Below the pieces are notes generated by a model, which saw only the letters and a program-made list of their open reading frames with translations, made no database searches and was not told the DNA's origin. A stretch of DNA of 64,000 bases from NCBI GenBank assembly GCA_011800155.1, contig CM022370.1:1240001-1304000 (forward strand). The letters are read 5' to 3'. Shown here piece after piece: positions 24,401 through 33,635 of the stretch. How positions within the stretch are numbered: position 1 is the stretch's first letter; each line of letters opens with the position of its first letter. The DNA is from Flammulina velutipes. Taxonomy: Eukaryota > Basidiomycota > Agaricomycetes > Agaricales > Physalacriaceae. The position numbers and the translations under genes were made by a program.

Positions 24401-27400
24401 GTTGGAAGTATAGAGCCCCAGATGGGACGAAGCACATATCGATCTTAGCTCGTCGGAAGTCTCGTAGAGATAAGTCGCTGACTTGATCCACGAGCTTGGC
24501 CAAGATAGGTATGACATATGCGTAGTCCTGCAGGGCTTCATCCGTAGTAGCGTTTTTCGCTTTGTCTTTTAAAAACCCGGTGAGGTAGTTGAATATATGA
24601 TGTGCCATTGAAGGAGGTAACGTGTGACGGACATGCAGGAAGGCACGGAACGATGTGACTGCAGTAGCAACGTCCTTGGTTTCATCTGCTAGTAAGTCCA
24701 AGACTGGCCTCGCTATAAGGGATGGATCGTTCCTCATAAGGTCGATGATAGTTGCCCGGGCTGCGTGCGCTACTGTGAAATCGGGATCGAAGACCAACGA
24801 AGCAAGCATAGGAAATATCCGAGTTAGAGAAGGAACGAAGATCGCCCGTCTTTTGATGCCATACATAGGACCGCCAGAGCTCGAATTACGCCGCAAAAGC
24901 GTCACGTCGTCAGAGGGTAGTCTTGGGGATTTCTGGGGTGAAGATACGGGGCTGGGATTAGGCGAAGGGCCAGGCGATGTGGGATAAGAAGGTTGTGTGG
25001 TCTTCGACTCAACGAGGTCCAACTGTTGTATGGGCAACAATGACAACGGCGTATGGATCCTTTCCATGTGTTGGTTAACAGGTGCATCATCATCCACCCA
25101 ACCAATTTCTGCCAAGCGCTTTCGCATCTCAGGAGGAAGGTTGTCTTTCGCATCCAGAGGATCATCTCGTCGCACGTAATGAGCAGAGCCCATATCAGTA
25201 GCGATGAACGGGAGAATAGGGCGCGCTAGTTTGAACAGCCTACGCGAGCGATCCGTAATGACGTGCTGGGAGGCAAGTTGGAATCGCCAATTGGAAAGCG
25301 TGCTAATCCGAGCAATTGCTCGCAATTTTGTATCTCGATCCAGACTGATAAATTGAATAAATGATTGTTATAGAGAGTCCATGCATACCTGTTGAAATCG
25401 ACTTGTATGGTTGCCTGGATATCAGCGGGTGTCTTCTCAGCGCACTGCATGATTAAAAAGCTGGCCTGCGGGACTATCAGTTTCCGTTTGGAAGACAAGG
25501 ACGATAAATGTACCGAGCCTACAGTCGACACGTCTACGTTATCATCCACGCAGAGATATCTATCCCATACAATCGGGCCAATGCGACCGAAATCCTCCGG
25601 CTCGAGCACCAAAGACACAGTCACAAGAAGCTTCATGATGCGACATATGTAGCCTTTCGCAAGCGCGGCGAGTAGTTTGTTTTCATGAGGTGCAGTAATT
25701 GATTGTCCGTCCATCGTAGACCGCCGCGGGTTATCGAGAGTAGCAGAAAGTAGCATGGTACTCCTTCTCTGCAACATTTTAGATATATGTCTCGTCCAGA
25801 AGAATGGACGAAGATTACCTGGTGATGGACGCGTGCTTCCTGCATCATCACATAAAGCTCTCGAATAGCTGTCACAGCAGTGTCCACCTCGTCATGAAAA
25901 TAGTCTTCGTCAATATGATCATGGTATTCGATAAACCACGATACAACTTGTTGTAGCCAAGGTGCACTGAATTGATTTATGAGCAACACGTTACAAATGT
26001 AGGCATGATGCAAACCTTTTCATCGATCGAGTGAGCAGGCGCGCCTCTCGGAATAAAACACAATACAACAGCCGCTGGGAAGGAGGCACCAGGAGCTTTC
26101 GTTCCTAAGGTTCAAAGTTAATGTCTATGGCAGGGACAGCTTCGTAATAACTCACTCTAGCCTGCAGTATGGCACCTAACCGAATCTCTAGCTCATAGAC
26201 AAACTTGGCCACGTCGAGGAATGCATCATCCGATATCTGTCAATCAGGTAAGCGTGGAACGTATATGGAGGACAGTGGACATACAGTGTTTGATTCCCTA
26301 TCCCTTCGCACTGATTGAATACTCCCGATCAACTCAACTAAGAGCATGGACTGTCCCAATCTCGCCTTGCTCCAAGTACCGTCCGCAACTTGATCTTTCC
26401 CGCTGGAACCTCCGATATCACTTGAGAGAGCAACAGACATCATCTCAGCATTTTGAGTCCAAAAGTTCGGAACGAACTTGGCTATGGAGTTAATTGTCCG
26501 AAGATGATTTACGATGGATACTTCTTTCGTTGCAGCAGCGCAAGAAAACAGTGGCTTATACATCAGCTGTGGGTAGGAATTCGAAAGGGTGGCAAACAAG
26601 GTGGTTAATGGTAGGCAAGGGTAGGGAGGCTCGTCGTCGACCATACGCTTGGTTCATCATCAGATAGGCATTACGCATTATGATTGAAAAAAAAAAGAAA
26701 CTCACCTCGTATAATTCGGGCAACATGAAAGCCACGACGAGTTTGCGGACGTCTTGGGGAAGTACTTGAGCAAGGGCATTAAGGATACGAAGTAATGGTG
26801 GCCAAGGACTGTCAACTATCTGAATACCGTTAGACTGAGAATTGCATCGAATGTAAAGTACTTGCCACATGCTTCAAACCCTTCTCGAAAGTGGCTTTCC
26901 ATTCAGCTCCTCGATACCAGCTGGTTACAGTGGCTATACACCAACGCCCGACGTCAGACATGTCCTCCGCTGTCAACATAATCAAGACCGCTTTGACCAG
27001 GTTCCTCTTTGCTTCGAGCACCGTGGCTGTAGAGGTGTTTTCCAATTCAGGAAGAACCCGCTCTCGGGCAATCTTTATGACAGTGAGGGAATCATTCAGG
27101 CGTCTGTTGGTGTCTGGTGAAGATGCGTCTAGCAGTGAACAGAAGATACGACTGAAGGCGTTTAACTTCCTAGAGTGAATGGAAGCTAACAATGGCGACA
27201 AAGATGAGTCTCGAGGCATGACAGGCCAGTATTCGTCGACGGCATAATTCAAGAGCCATTTCCTATCCGCCTCTGGCGCATTCTCGATACACTTGCCCAA
27301 TGCCTCCACCATCAACACATCACGGACATCCTGTTGTGAATCGACGTCAAGGAAGATGGCATTGTAGTCCTGTTCCACCGTCATCTCTTCGAATTCTCCG

Positions 27401-28646
27401 CAAGAGCCATCGCGGACCTGACGAATGATTTGGCTGAGAAGTTTGCCTTCCTCGGTACGGCCGTCTGCCCATGGGAGAAGAGAGAACATTCCTTGTGATA
27501 TGGAGATGAATGCCATGGGTGTAGATACCGGTACGCAAGACTCGGATGGGACAGTCAGAGCCCAGAGTGAAGAAAGGACCCTCAGTCGGAGCGGCGAAGG
27601 TTGTATGAAGGCTGCCTTGAGACACCACATAGCTCGTTCTATCCCTGAGGCCTGAAGTTCCAATGAGAACGTATCAGGAGGGAGATGAATGAACGCACCT
27701 CGTCTATAGGATCCCATGTCTTTCTGATGACTTCAAAAGATTCAATCGCAAACCACCGTTCTTCATCAACTCGCGTCCCTTTGTCGAAGGTCAGAAATGG
27801 GATGAGAAGGGTAGAGAGGACTAGGTTTTCAATGGGGAGCGCGCGGATGCCTGTCGGCTCGTATTGAAGCAGTACTTGATAGAGGTATTTCAGGCTGACA
27901 GGCTGCAAGTGTAGTGATTGTCTGCGCGTCTTCGAGTTGGTGACGTTGCTAAGCTGGTTGATAGATAGCGAAGACCCATGCATGTTCATCGCCCCGTACG
28001 ACTTTACATCCCCAAATCGCGTCGCCCAACAGGCCTTCTGAAGATCGTATGCGAACTTCCTCGAATCATCGAATGCGATCTCGCGCGCATGCTCCACGAC
28101 CTGCTTGAAGCCGAGTTTCTGGGCTATGCGGGATGTCTTGGGTGCTTGTGCAGTACGAGGAACGCTTAACGTCGAGGACGAGCTTGACGACGGCTGTTGC
28201 GAGTGGAGAGGAGGCGTCAGGAGGACATGTTGACGGACATGATCCCACCGTGCTGACGACGGCGAAGGTGGTATTAACTCTCCTTTGATAGACGAGGCTG
28301 TCGTTGACTTGGCCAGGTCGAGCTTTGGGAGCGTCCTGAAGAACGCCGGCCTCGGACTTTCTGGCCTCTGTTGGGCATCGTTGAATGGGTTGTGCTCAGA
28401 GCCCAAAGGTGATTCGACGAGGTCTGTCTTGGTCCAAGCTGCATCCCGCAAAGTGTCGTCTTCATTGAGCTCCGAAAGTGTCGAAAACTTGGAATGGCCG
28501 CGGGCCTGCGACTGACTTGGTGATTCGAACGAAGTCTCGGATGCCGTTCGGCGACTGGAAGACGACTTTCCCGAGTCAAAAGAGAACAGCCGTCGCGGTC
28601 CTCGCGGTGTTCGTCGCTTGTCGCTGTCCTGGGACTTTGAAGGCAT
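21439..28646 (-). CDS. TAO3: Tao3/Mor2/Furry-type cell-morphogenesis scaffold (PAG1)
   Basis: A giant HEAT-like protein of roughly 2,200 residues in about ten exons. Family members (yeast Tao3, fission yeast Mor2, animal Furry) hold the RAM/NDR kinase Cbk1/Orb6 and Mob2 and direct polarised growth and cell separation. The start ATG 28646 (MPSKSQDSDKRRTPRGPRR) opens a Ser-rich, probably phosphorylated N terminus; a longer reading begins at TTG 28709 and was rejected. The MOR2-PAG1 N-terminal domain begins near RIAQKLGFKQVVEHAREIAF (about 28110). The mid region (25325-23805) includes a Pro/Ser stretch between TSPGPSPNPS and RLPSDDVTLLRR. The C-terminal domain (23880-21439) contains EVNEVVATFLADFARVSYC and ends EEMFTEGDSMVVVDAEQSFR. 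Its joins, such as DPIDE to ASGIERAMW, use GT..AG introns. Not every small exon between 25.3 and 26.9 kb was verified. Confidence 0.93.
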
Positions 28647-28822
28647 CAATGAGGCATGGACAGAAGGGGAGGTTGAATTTTCCCACACTATAATGATCGA
28701 CAAGTACAATTATTGAATGCCCTACAAGTATACGACGTACAAGCATGTTGATAAATAAATCCAGCAAAGAGAAAATCACAGCAATTATAATATAGCAGTC
28801 GAAGCAAATCCCTTCAGTGCAC

Positions 28823-31800
28823 CTAAAGACCTTTCACCCTGGCAGTCCTCTCCATGTCCCTTTCAGCCTTCAACTTCTCAATCTCTTTCATCAACGCCTC
28901 CCTCTCCGTCCTCATCTGCTTCTCCCGTTCCATTCTGTCGATTCGCATAGCATGAAGCTCCTCTTCTTTCCTGTCCAGTTCCCTGTCCTTTCTCTCCAGC
29001 TCTCGTTCAAGGCGATCCAAAAGTCGCAGTTCGCTCCTGGAGATACTGGAGAGAATGAGGGGATCGGATTGTCTGAGCGGGCCTTCGTCACGATACGAGT
29101 CTTGAGCCGTAATGCCAGTGGCCGAGCGCCCAGTAGCACCGAGCTGAGGCGCCGACTGTGTCGTACTATACGAGGCCAGAGCCGAGACAGAATCCCGTTG
29201 AGACGCCAACTCAGGCCTAGGTGCCACCGGCTGTGACTTTTGGGAGTCGTGCTTCGCGCCACTAAGCCTGGTGCCAGTGGCTTTTGGTTGCCTTACGACA
29301 GCCGGCTCCTCCTCATTCTCATTCTCCTCCACGACAATCGTCTGAGAGGATGTCTCTTCAACTGCATCCGTCGTTGTCCGAGATATCGTCGAAGTGTGTG
29401 CTTTCCGCGCACTATCATGAGTGGAAGCTGGCACGGCTCTATTGCTGCATGCCTTTCTCTTCAACCTGCACATTCGGCAATTACCTACCACATCTTTCTG
29501 CATTCGGTCGCATGGAATCTTTCGAGCGACGCACGTTTCACACTTGATATCATATGAGCTCAAAGCCTAAACGTTTTGGAGGACGTGTACTCACACTTTC
29601 CTCGAACTGAACGGGACTCAAATCCCAATCTGAGATTTTGATCCTCCCACCAATCTTCCCATCGATCAGGTCGACGCCGCCCCCCAGGGAGACGTTGATG
29701 ATGTTCGCCCAAATATCTTCTCCCGCCCTTTTTTTTGCCGCCTCTTGTTGATCCAGGTCCAATGTGACTGCGACATCGTGAAGCTCGGCGAACCATCTAT
29801 CTCTCTCAGATGCTTCAACTTCTTTTGCCAGCAGAGCCCAAAACTGTTGGTAAAAACATCAGAATTACAAGCAAAATGATCATGTAGAAAGAGGAAGACA
29901 CACTTTCGTAAACGCATTGCTGTCTTGTGCACCCTCTCCAGGTAAAGGTTTGGCGATCTCGTCATAATCGTTCGTCGTATCAGCTTGTGATGGAGGTAGG
30001 TCTACCTCCATAGACCAACCACATTTCTCGTCCTCGAGTAAGCATTCTCTACAGTCCGACTCCTTGCTACAGCTATGCACACAGTTCCGATTCAATGATG
30101 CGCAACGTTCGCACTAGCTTGAAACATCAGGTCTGAGAGACGGGATCCAAAGTATGAGTTGACTGACCGGCGAGGTAGCGGTTATTGGTATCAAACTCCA
30201 CGACACTATGGGCACCCCGTCTACAGTCGTTCCCTCTAGTTTCTTTCCCTTGATCCGGCTGGAATTCCAAATGATTTCGCACCAAAGCTCGTCGCCTATC
30301 TCCTCACGCAACTCACGAAGCCTCTCCGTATCAAGTCGGGTACCAAGATCACGAAGTTCTTTGAGCCACGTGCGGCGGGAAGAGGGTGTCGTGGGAGGAG
30401 CGGAATGGACGGAGCGAAACTGGAACGAGTTCAGAATGGCCAGGAATACCTAAATAGAGGTTATTCACCTTTTTCATAATCATCTCATCTGTCATGATAT
30501 TGTCCATCTGAGGGCTCTTCCTCACACACTCGCTCCCTACAAGCGCACATTCCCTGCAAGCACCATCTAGTTCGCGCATATTCGTATACATGCAGGTAAC
30601 ACCCGCAGTCTTGCACGCATCACACTAATAGAGGCACTAAGTAAGCCATATTTATGTGTAGAGAGTGAGATACGTACCGGAGCACCAGCTTGGATAGGAA
30701 CCAAGTCCCAGTCAGCCACTTTCACGGCGCCTTGTTTGCTAACTGGTCTCCCTTCTCTCAGATTTAAACTAACCATCTGGGCCCATCTAACGTCCCCGAG
30801 CTTAGCCTTTACTTCATCCTGTTTATGCCGAGTCATCTGAAGAACCATATCTCGCATCTCTTCGAGCCAGACCCTCTTACTGCTGTCTTTTTTCTGTTTG
30901 TCATTATGTATGTTGACGAACTGCGTCGAACAGATTAGTAGGGCAAGACTCACGAAGACAGGCTATCACTTACATCAACATAAAGCAAGTGATCCATTTG
31001 TTCCTGTGCAGGGTTAGGCTCCTGAGGCGGTTCTTGCGAAACGGGCGAGCATGGTTCGTTGAGTGATTTCAATGCGCATCGGCGACAATGAGCGCCTGGC
31101 TCCTCAACATTCGCGTACTCGCAGGGAACGACGCGTGTAAGACATGATTCACACTTGACAGATGGTAAATAACGAAGAAAACAGTGCAGACTAGGTACTC
31201 ACTGGTTTCAGAGACAGAGTTGGTACAAGGTCCCACCCCGTGATCTTGTTAACGACGCCCGTTAACGCGCGAACTTTCCCTTCGTGGTTCAATGGAAGAC
31301 TGAGATGGACAAGGTCTGCCCATAGTGAGGGGGGCAGTTGTTCTTTTATTTCCTTCTGTGCTTCGGGGGTCATCTGTAGAATTCGTCGACGGAGTTCAAT
31401 CAACCAGGACTGCTTGTTGGCTTCGCGTGTGGGGTCATTAAAGTGCGATTTAAGCTAGAAGAGATATCAGGACGGATCTACATGGGGAGAGATGTGTCAC
31501 TGACTGAGGCTGGAAGCGATGATTCGTCGAAAGGTATCCCTACAACACACGGCTTCTGCTTGAACAAGCATCGACGACATTTCTGGTGCGGTTTGCTGGC
31601 TACTGTGTTCTCACATTGGCTTTTGATCGATGTACAAAAGTTGCACTACGAGATAGTGAATGAGACGCGTTGAGAGATATGTATGCGCTAACGTACCGAT
31701 TCAGTCCTCGCTGTTGGGACAAGGTCCCAGTCCGTGATGCGTATTCCTCTGATGACCTGGTTCTTGAGACTCCTCGGCGCGCCGTCTAGTTTCTTGGGAA

Positions 31801-32161
31801 CGTTCAAATGAACAAGTTGAGACCATAGCTCAGAGCCTGCGATCGCCTTCGCGGTCCTTCTGCCCTTGTCGTCCATTTCGAGAGCAATATCGCGTAGTTC
31901 CGTGAGCCAGGAGACTCTATCTTCTGTTTGTCTATCTTCATCTTTGAACAACGCCTCAAACTGAAATGAGACGCGTTAGCGAATTGGAACGCGTCGAAGG
32001 ATGAGCGCGTCGGCTTTACGTACAGAGTTCTCGACGGTTTTGCGCCTCTTCGGTGGATGATCATCACATAGGGATGAGGCAGTCGACTGAGTTCGTTTCT
32101 GCGACATGTTGTCGTGAGAGTTGTTGGAAGAGGAAAAGGATCGTCGCAAACGACGCCACAT
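28823..32161 (-). CDS. Novel five-module Zn2Cys6-array protein with C-terminal coiled coil
   Basis: Eleven exons, all joined in phase 0 (32161-32024, 31960-31697, 31645-31505, 31454-31203, 31153-30974, 30920-30678, 30624-30469, 30419-30168, 30113-29904, 29843-29595, 29542-28823), encode 934 residues. After a 46-residue basic leader (PPKRRKTVENS) come five modules at about residues 47-181, 182-325, 326-458, 459-612 and 613 onward. Each has an N-terminal segment with W-[LF]-x-E-[LM]-[RH], a central [LIR]-W-x-x-[LMI]-[VI] motif and a W-[DS]-L-[VIS]-P motif. Then follows a Cys array C-x2-C-x6-C-x9-11-C-x2-C-x6-7-C, starting CNFC, CESC, CDAC, CERC and CETC. That spacing is Zn(II)2Cys6. The tail is Ser/Thr/Gln-rich, then a charged coiled coil (ELERKDRELDRKEEELHAMR). 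I know no described family with this layout. Nuclear zinc binding is inferred. ATG 32107 is an alternative start. Confidence 0.82.
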
Positions 32162-32417: not shown

Positions 32418-33635
32418 ATGGTTTCTTTTCAGTAAGGCGTGTTTAACTCTTGTGTTCTCTACGGTACTTACTATTTGACTAGCTGTAACGGTTAGAGATC
32501 CCATGCGCACACCAACTATCCATTAACATTTATTCAACAGGATGCGACGATGTCGTGAAGAAACCAAAACTGGAGTCTCACTGGCAACGATGCCATGCAG
32601 ATGTTGACTGCCTCGATTGCAGCCAAACCTTCAAGAATCCCGCGCAATTCAAGAGCCATACCTCGTGCGTCAGTGAAGCAGAAAAATACGAAAAAAGCGT
32701 CTACAAAGGTCCAAAAACGGTGTGTTTTGATCTCTTCATATTCTGTATGTCTAGCTGATCGTTTGCCTGAATAGGGACCCAAAAACAACTATCCGCGACT
32801 AGAGGCAGCTGCGCCTATGGAGCCCGCGCAGGGTGGTTTCCGTGGTGGTGGCTTCCGTGGTGGCTTCCGTGGCGGACGCGGTGGATTCAACGCTGTCAGC
32901 GGTCGTTCAAGTGGTGCCAACTGTACCCCCATGGGCACACCAAAAGGCTCCCCACCACCTACCCCTGCTCCCCCCACCCTCAAGCGCAAGGCGGATGAGA
33001 TGGACGTTGATCAAAAGGTACGGCAGTCCATATCATTTTTCTCATTCTTTTGAATACCGAAACTTCTCCAGATCACTTTACAGGAATCTACTGAGACAAA
33101 GAAGTCGAAGACGACCGATACCAACGTGGAGAAGCCAGTCAAGGAGAAAAAAGACAAGAAATCGAAAAAGGACAAGACGGAGCTCCCGGCTACCGAATCT
33201 CCAGTAGCGACAACAGACGCGACGAATGGCAAGAAAGAAAAGAAAAAGGACAAGAAGGAAAAGAAGGCGTCAGAAACCGCACCCGTGGATGCCGCCTCAA
33301 GCTCACCGTCAAGCGAGGAAAAGACAAAGAAGGAAAAGAAGGAGAAAAAGAAATCCAGGTCGGTGGACGCAGAGGATGAAGGAGAATCCAAAAAATCCAA
33401 AAAGAAGCGACAGCAAGCTGAATCTGCTATGGACGTCGATGTACCGCCTTCTCATTCCACAGACGAATCGTCTAAGAAGCGAAAACGGGATACTGCAGAT
33501 ATCGCAGTAGTCGCAGTAGCGGACGGATCCTCGAAGGACAAGAAGAAGAAGGAGAAAAAATCGTCAGACGAGAAGAAAGAAAAGAAGAAACATCGCAAGT
33601 CAGAAACGACAGCAGTCGTCTCTGTGGTGGCGTAA
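32418..33635 (+). CDS. LYAR: LYAR-type C2HC zinc-finger nucleolar protein
   Basis: Five exons (32418-32431, 32483-32490, 32541-32719, 32775-33017, 33072-33635) total 1008 bases, 335 residues. The N terminus MVSFHCNGCDDVVKKPKLES, then HWQRCHADVDCLDCSQTF and HTSCVSEAEKY, is the LYAR zinc-finger pair (C-x2-C...H-x3-C, C-x2-C...H-x3-C). Next comes a Gly/Arg/Phe-rich stretch (GFRGGGFRGGFRGGRGG), common in nucleolar RNA-binding proteins. The rest is a long Lys/Glu-rich tail with KKRKRDTADI and many KEKK runs. Homologues bind nucleic acid and act in rRNA synthesis and ribosome maturation. The second exon is only 8 bases long and encodes the first zinc-binding Cys. Confidence 0.93.
32483..32490 (+). 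other. 8-base microexon of the LYAR gene
   Basis: CTGTAACG lies between introns 32432-32482 (GTAAGG..CTAG) and 32491-32540 (GTTAGA..ACAG). It completes CA-C TGT AAC G-GA, encoding His-Cys-Asn-Gly, which restores the MVSFHCNGC finger start. Confidence 0.8.

Follow-up and report, generated by a model that had tools for sequence, protein, structure and literature searches.

Introduction

Zn2Cys6 proteins are among the largest families of fungal regulators and are generally regarded as single-cluster DNA binders. Their cysteines follow the pattern C-x2-C-x6-C-x5..12-C-x2-C-x6..9-C, a basic loop rich in lysine and arginine (K/R) between the second and third cysteines contacts DNA in the canonical domain, and Gal4-class factors carry a single cluster close to their N terminus, with a fungal-specific regulatory domain (PF04082 or PF11951) usually coming after it. 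Here we describe a gene of the basidiomycete Flammulina velutipes that does not have this layout. It lies on the minus strand of a 64,000-nucleotide stretch of DNA (G000:C3:1240001-1304000, hereafter the window, from a genome of 38.1 Mb in 23 contigs), and its predicted protein has five Zn2Cys6-like clusters, each joined to a tryptophan-rich segment (the W segment) to form a W+Zn module. We tentatively propose that the gene represents a separate fungal class in which the Zn2Cys6 fold has shifted from DNA reading to a repeatable block that binds proteins, or proteins and nucleic acids, and is fused to a helical domain for which we found no relative; this class would occur in arrays of one, three, or five units, the larger ones ending in a potential pairing coil.

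Among the papers listed by full-text literature searches, judged by titles and the openings of abstracts, we saw no such family. An excerpt of PMC10305253 refers to earlier work on a factor that has two Zn2Cys6 domains. One further match, PMC10017718, was false, the excerpt reading "Fifty-five".

Gene Structure and Conservation in Cylindrobasidium torrendii

The gene comprises 11 exons and 10 introns and, when the exons are joined at GT..AG sites, encodes a protein of 916 amino acids that ends at a stop codon at 28823. Every exon length is divisible by three, and all 10 introns (49-63 nucleotides) have GT..AG borders and are in phase 0. After a short first exon, W segments of 81-88 amino acids alternate strictly with zinc-cluster exons, five times over, and an intron immediately precedes the first cysteine of all five clusters. 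The clusters span residues 117-709 and contain 30 of the 33 cysteines of the protein, the net charge of which is -5. The features are listed below; scores are those of single Zn exons against the Pfam family Zn_clus (PF00172; gathering cut-off 21 bits), and model confidence is given as the predicted local distance difference test (pLDDT).

32024..32107, minus strand: exon 1, from the start methionine to residue 28, with the basic motif PPKRRK (putative nuclear localization signal); start placed by alignment with the C. torrendii ortholog
31697..31960, minus strand: exon 2, W segment 1 (88 amino acids); shuffle test, helical model with mean pLDDT 79.3
31505..31645, minus strand: exon 3, zinc cluster 1, C-x2-C-x6-C-x11-C-x2-C-x6-C; 17.6 bits, below the cut-off
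31203..31454, minus strand: exon 4, W segment 2 (84 amino acids); shuffle test
30974..31153, minus strand: exon 5, zinc cluster 2, last gap x8; 12.4 bits
30678..30920, minus strand: exon 6, W segment 3 (81 amino acids); shuffle test
30469..30624, minus strand: exon 7, zinc cluster 3; 21.7 bits, above the cut-off
30168..30419, minus strand: exon 8, W segment 4 (84 amino acids); shuffle test
29904..30113, minus strand: exon 9, zinc cluster 4, net charge -2; no Zn_clus match
29595..29843, minus strand: exon 10, W segment 5 (83 amino acids); shuffle test
28823..29542, minus strand: exon 11, zinc cluster 5 (first ~35 amino acids, RK in the loop), a linker of ~126 amino acids, a coiled coil (residues ~839-916), and the stop codon; 14.3 bits

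This protein has a full-length counterpart in another member of the Physalacriaceae (Agaricales). CYLTODRAFT_487468 of Cylindrobasidium torrendii FP15055 ss-10 (P0001 in our searches), a protein of 911 amino acids whose record says only "hypothetical protein", is 43% identical to the window protein over its whole length (41% over 98% by BLASTP) and shares with it the order of the five W+Zn modules as well as the C-terminal coiled coil. It was the sole match of the whole protein among 5.8 billion proteins (7987 candidates scored), in a search that requires shared five-letter words and scores a capped list of candidates, so that distant relatives may escape and the distributions given here are lower bounds. 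The excerpt of PMC6917577 that names two other CYLTODRAFT proteins does not name this one. The alignment of the two proteins is free of gaps within five columns of all 10 exon junctions, and because the C. torrendii protein was annotated independently, the splicing of the window gene is supported. Since the five-module protein is annotated in another fungus too, the gene is, on the evidence of its sequence, intact and real rather than a reading error. It is scarcely credible that the model is an artefact in which several genes or pseudogene pieces were joined by eye: all 11 exons are open and in frame between GT..AG splice sites, and the ortholog, annotated as one continuous five-module protein, has the same joins, which argues against several separate genes.

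The original prediction of a single 11-exon reading path, with five clusters each next to a homologous W segment, is borne out by the rebuilt frame and by the ortholog, and every repeat motif that it quoted is present in the rebuilt protein. Its cysteine spacing, C-x2-C-x6-C-x9..11-C-x2-C-x6-C, needs one correction, in that the last gap was given as x6-7 but is x8 in module 2. In place of the start codon that it chose, at 32161, we prefer the ATG at 32107, because the ortholog begins at the matching residue. A conserved C-terminal coiled coil, which it left out, is also present.

The two arrays correspond module by module. For all five W exons of the window, the segment at the same position in the ortholog gives the top score, which rules out concerted evolution of the modules. 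In a module tree with strong support on only 1 of 11 inner branches, same-position pairs were recovered for modules 3 (91/95), 4 (100/99), and 5 (82/91), and window module 1 grouped with its C. torrendii partner and with the first module of a relative on contig C9 of the same genome (91/94); the pairing of module 2 was not recovered, and the rows from contig C9 and from a second relative, on contig C12, had long branches. Since the modules match position by position, the five-unit array probably predates the split from C. torrendii. Identity between the orthologs is 36-54% in the W exons, 34-45% in Zn exons 1 to 4, and 41% in the core of cluster 5; it is 69% in the C-terminal coil and 17% in the preceding linker. 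The modules and the coil look constrained, whereas the linker does not. The ortholog also differs in detail: its module 4 does not have the leading tryptophan (NEVQALRQ), the last gap of its cluster 2 is x10, and the first loop of its cluster 5 has no K/R.

The W Segment

The W segments are homologous beyond chance, since none of 300 shuffles reached the score of any of the 10 pairs within the window (z 11 to 22); those of the C9 and C12 relatives are joined to them through the C9 modules. When 14 modules are aligned (five from the window, five from C. torrendii, three from C9, and one from C12), the six cysteines, an arginine directly after the fourth cysteine, and one tryptophan are invariant. 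We found no relative of the W segment above chance in Pfam, PDB sequences, or PDB folds, and no Pfam model covers it, in line with the earlier view that the layout matches no described family. The model of W segment 1 alone, built from six sequences (mean pLDDT 79.3), has five helices and a small number of isolated beta bridges, and in a model of the ortholog the pLDDT of the blocks that cover the module 1 helices is 91-96.

Nature of the Zinc Clusters

Several lines of evidence indicate that the clusters are likely divergent Zn2Cys6 domains, although each single test supports this weakly. First, all five window clusters have the six-cysteine spacing, and cluster 3 exceeds the Pfam cut-off on its own; the entire protein scores 10.2 bits. 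Second, all three matches in a PDB profile search with the module were CBF3 subunit B (E values of 1.4 to 2.3), and they covered the zinc-cluster part only. Third, the ortholog model places short helices at both CxxC motifs, as in Zn2Cys6 domains, in four of the five modules (1, 3, 4, and 5, and not 2). Finally, the Leu3 DNA-binding domain had the highest probability among the 50 Foldseek rows shown for that model (probability 0.51, E 7.5). The spacing fits the Zn2Cys6 identity given in the original prediction, but the clusters are not plain members of the family: only one of five is over the gathering score, the others being below it or unmatched, and the basic loop that contacts DNA is eroded. 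Furthermore, the middle gap is x9-11 in the window compared with x5-11 in 13 control clusters, an arginine directly follows the fourth cysteine in 14 of 14 family modules and in 1 of 13 controls, and the window protein has five clusters, each paired with a W domain. CBF3 subunit B, the best though weak PDB profile match (E 1.4), is itself a Zn2Cys6 protein, but the match covers a single cluster, its loop is strongly basic (TRRKVK), and no W segment was matched. This subunit, Cep3 of the yeast centromere complex, acts on DNA as part of an assembly of several proteins.

The first loop carries a mean of 1.3 K/R in the 14 family modules and 3.5 of 6 in 13 canonical clusters (Mann-Whitney p 1.4e-5). 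At loop positions 1, 4, and 6, K/R occurs in 4, 5, and 0 of the 12 six-residue loops of the family, compared with 11, 12, and 12 of the 13 controls. These controls are clusters of the same genome with an x6 loop, taken from the 20 best Pfam hits of 93 matches after 7 of the 20 fetched had been dropped, as their full pattern did not lie within one open stretch. Thus, the W+Zn family does not have the basic first loop of the Gal4 class; nor does the window protein have a single N-terminal cluster, and neither PF04082 nor PF11951 is among the three Pfam families listed for it at E up to 10. Judging from the sequence, it is unlikely that all five clusters read CGG in the ordinary way, and some DNA binding by the clusters is possible.

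Alternatively, the protein may be a multivalent DNA binder, either a transcription factor or a chromatin-architecture protein, in which clusters that bind DNA weakly through an altered surface would draw affinity and long-range recognition from five copies on each of two chains, like poly-zinc-finger proteins. The Zn2Cys6-type spacing in all five clusters, the Pfam score of cluster 3, the CBF3 subunit B and Leu3 matches, the net charges of clusters 1 and 5 (+6 and +7), and the basic N-terminal motif would all suit such a protein. However, both structure matches are weak, the net charges of clusters 2, 3, and 4 are -1, 0, and -2 and that of the whole protein is also negative, and loop K/R is not only lost but also not retained by position between the orthologs, module 5 having RK in the window and none in C. 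torrendii. On balance we consider this explanation rather unlikely.

Relatives within the Genome and Wider Distribution

Two further W+Zn genes were found in the same genome, with splice sites that are our own choice, made without a transcript or an ortholog. The C9 relative (L018 3383-7175, G000:C9) encodes 1148 amino acids with three modules and has seven introns, all in phase 0. An extra KR-rich linker exon follows module 1, and the 3' part encodes acidic and Pro/Ser-rich stretches followed by a charged, helix-like C-terminal stretch. The last gap of its cluster 1 is x5, and clusters 2 and 3 have shortened first loops (C-x2-C-x4-C and C-x2-C-x5-C) and x14 middle gaps. The C12 relative (L007 956-2580, G000:C12) encodes a protein of 449 amino acids that has a single module and ends in a Pro/Ser-rich tail; introns 1-4 are in phase 0, unlike the fifth, which interrupts the tail. 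In all nine modules of the three genes, a W exon is paired with a Zn exon and a phase-0 intron lies directly before the first cysteine. The W segments form a chain in which each link was unmatched in 300 shuffles (C9 module 2 with C12, z 11.8; C9 modules 2 and 3, z 10.8; C9 module 3 with window module 2, z 7.1; C9 module 1 with window module 1, z 10.1). Single-module homologs with unrelated W segments, which the original prediction had named as an outcome that would count against it, were not found, although the C12 segment is tied to the others via C9 module 2 and only weakly or not at all by direct comparison.

Searches of the genome with each of the nine modules returned no further gene of the W+Zn family; a weak match on contig C4 (E 0.41) was set aside on inspection. 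Outside the genome, the same kind of capped search with a profile of the 14 modules (7990 candidates scored) found only P0002, a sequence of 111 amino acids whose identity across the W exon of C12 is 98%; it is therefore probable that another public data set includes F. velutipes or a closely related fungus. P0002 comes from ENA and has four member sequences. A protein search with the coil only (463 candidates scored) returned the C. torrendii ortholog alone.

This very narrow distribution in our searches (the ortholog, plus the C12-related P0002) and the presence of genes with 5, 3, and 1 modules within one genome would suit a lineage-restricted gene that evolves in conflict or has a mobile-element origin, with a repeat array of changing unit number, and the modules do diverge fast (34-54% identity to the ortholog per W or Zn exon). 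We nevertheless find this explanation improbable. Since the lineages of the window gene and its C. torrendii ortholog parted, the five modules have stayed the same in number, order, and register, and the protein has no transposase or other enzyme domain over the Pfam cut-off.

A Candidate Multivalent Scaffold

We propose that the protein is a nuclear, dimeric, multivalent zinc-cluster scaffold that grew by duplication of an exon pair, a reading on which we are evenly divided and in which the bound zinc, the location, the pairing, the packing of W domain on cluster, and the partners are all predicted. The gene would have grown by repeated duplication of a two-exon unit consisting of an exon for a helical W domain and an exon for a divergent Zn2Cys6-like cluster; as the unit exons are bounded by phase-0 introns, whole units could be added in frame. 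Each W domain may pack on its own zinc cluster to give one rigid binding unit. The basic N-terminal motif may target the protein to the nucleus; PPKRRK is present in the window protein, and the C. torrendii, C9, and C12 proteins have looser basic stretches. The C-terminal coil would pair two chains. The last 78 residues contain the heptad series S L L L L R M L L E G, in which 7 of 11 residues are hydrophobic in the best of seven registers and 1 to 4 in the others, and in the ortholog the coil was modeled as one helix (residues 832-907) with 10-residue blocks at pLDDT 85-98. Since the coil would pair two five-unit chains, a dimer would present ten zinc-cluster units, and these could hold partner proteins or chromatin multivalently, unlike the single-site CGG reading of Gal4-type factors. 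The original prediction raised the idea of a scaffold that uses several zinc clusters at once, and the anatomy deduced here fits it. The same scaffold protein is possibly also an unusual DNA binder.

The concentration of 30 of 33 cysteines in the clusters, which would bind ten zinc ions per chain were every cluster binuclear, might also be read as a metal store or as a zinc or redox sensor, in which thiolate clusters bind and release zinc rather than macromolecules. Metallothionein-like stores are short and cysteine-dense, and in the window protein the W domains and the coil are conserved too, not the clusters alone; we therefore regard this as very improbable.

Several observations weigh against the proposed scaffold. 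At E up to 10, Zn_clus matched four of nine Zn exons (window 1, 2, 3, and 5), only one of them above the cut-off, and it matched none of window Zn exon 4, the three C9 Zn exons, the C12 Zn exon, and the whole C. torrendii protein. A PROSITE-like core pattern fits one of the five clusters in the window and 3 of the 14 in the family. The model of the 911-residue ortholog is of low confidence overall (mean pLDDT 64.2, predicted template modeling score 0.30). The loop controls lean toward the canonical because they were drawn from the best Pfam hits, and cluster 5 of the window keeps an RK pair in its loop together with a net charge of +7. Moreover, direct W comparisons between the window and C12 are weak or null (68, 44, 4, 265, and 66 of 300 shuffles reach the score for modules 1-5), so that the link from C12 to the window is indirect and rests on C9 module 2. 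Finally, to our knowledge, nearly all Zn2Cys6 domains of known function bind DNA.

Other Multicluster Genes and Neighboring Genes

Several clusters per gene are not unique to the W+Zn gene. A plus-strand gene of contig C6 in this genome (L037, G000:C6:739500-744500, ~1980-2900) carries three or more canonical Zn2Cys6 clusters in tandem within a short stretch. The clear ones read CANCRKARVKC.., CKACRKDNKK/intron/C.., and CEACRQNNKKC.., and flanking pieces may bring the number to five across several introns. In contrast to the window gene, these clusters have canonical basic loops (e.g., RKARVK), and no W segment was seen between them in the partial gene model. On the minus strand of contig C4 (L038, G000:C4:2348500-2352500), two Zn_clus matches lie ~250 bases apart, with two canonical-looking halves (KCDGAHPTCSSC.. 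and KCDGSKPFCSTC..) across introns, possibly forming a two-cluster gene.

Within the window, the W+Zn gene is flanked by a divergently transcribed gene on the plus strand (32489-33635) that encodes a C2HC zinc finger of the LYAR type (PF08790, E 2.9e-13) with a long Lys/Glu-rich tail. Downstream, on the minus strand (26830-28709), two long open frames (300 and 356 amino acids) look like exons of one gene, in which no Pfam family was found at E 0.001.

Significance

The paper listings and Pfam families that we searched contained neither the five-unit layout nor the W domain nor the eroded loop; the cluster itself is near a known domain. If our proposal is true, a conserved array of five divergent clusters without the DNA-contact loop, each joined to a helical domain for which we found no relative, would show that the Zn2Cys6 fold can serve as a repeatable module, the exon pair in phase 0 would offer a simple route for the growth of such arrays, and the one-, three-, and five-module genes of a single genome would be natural size variants.

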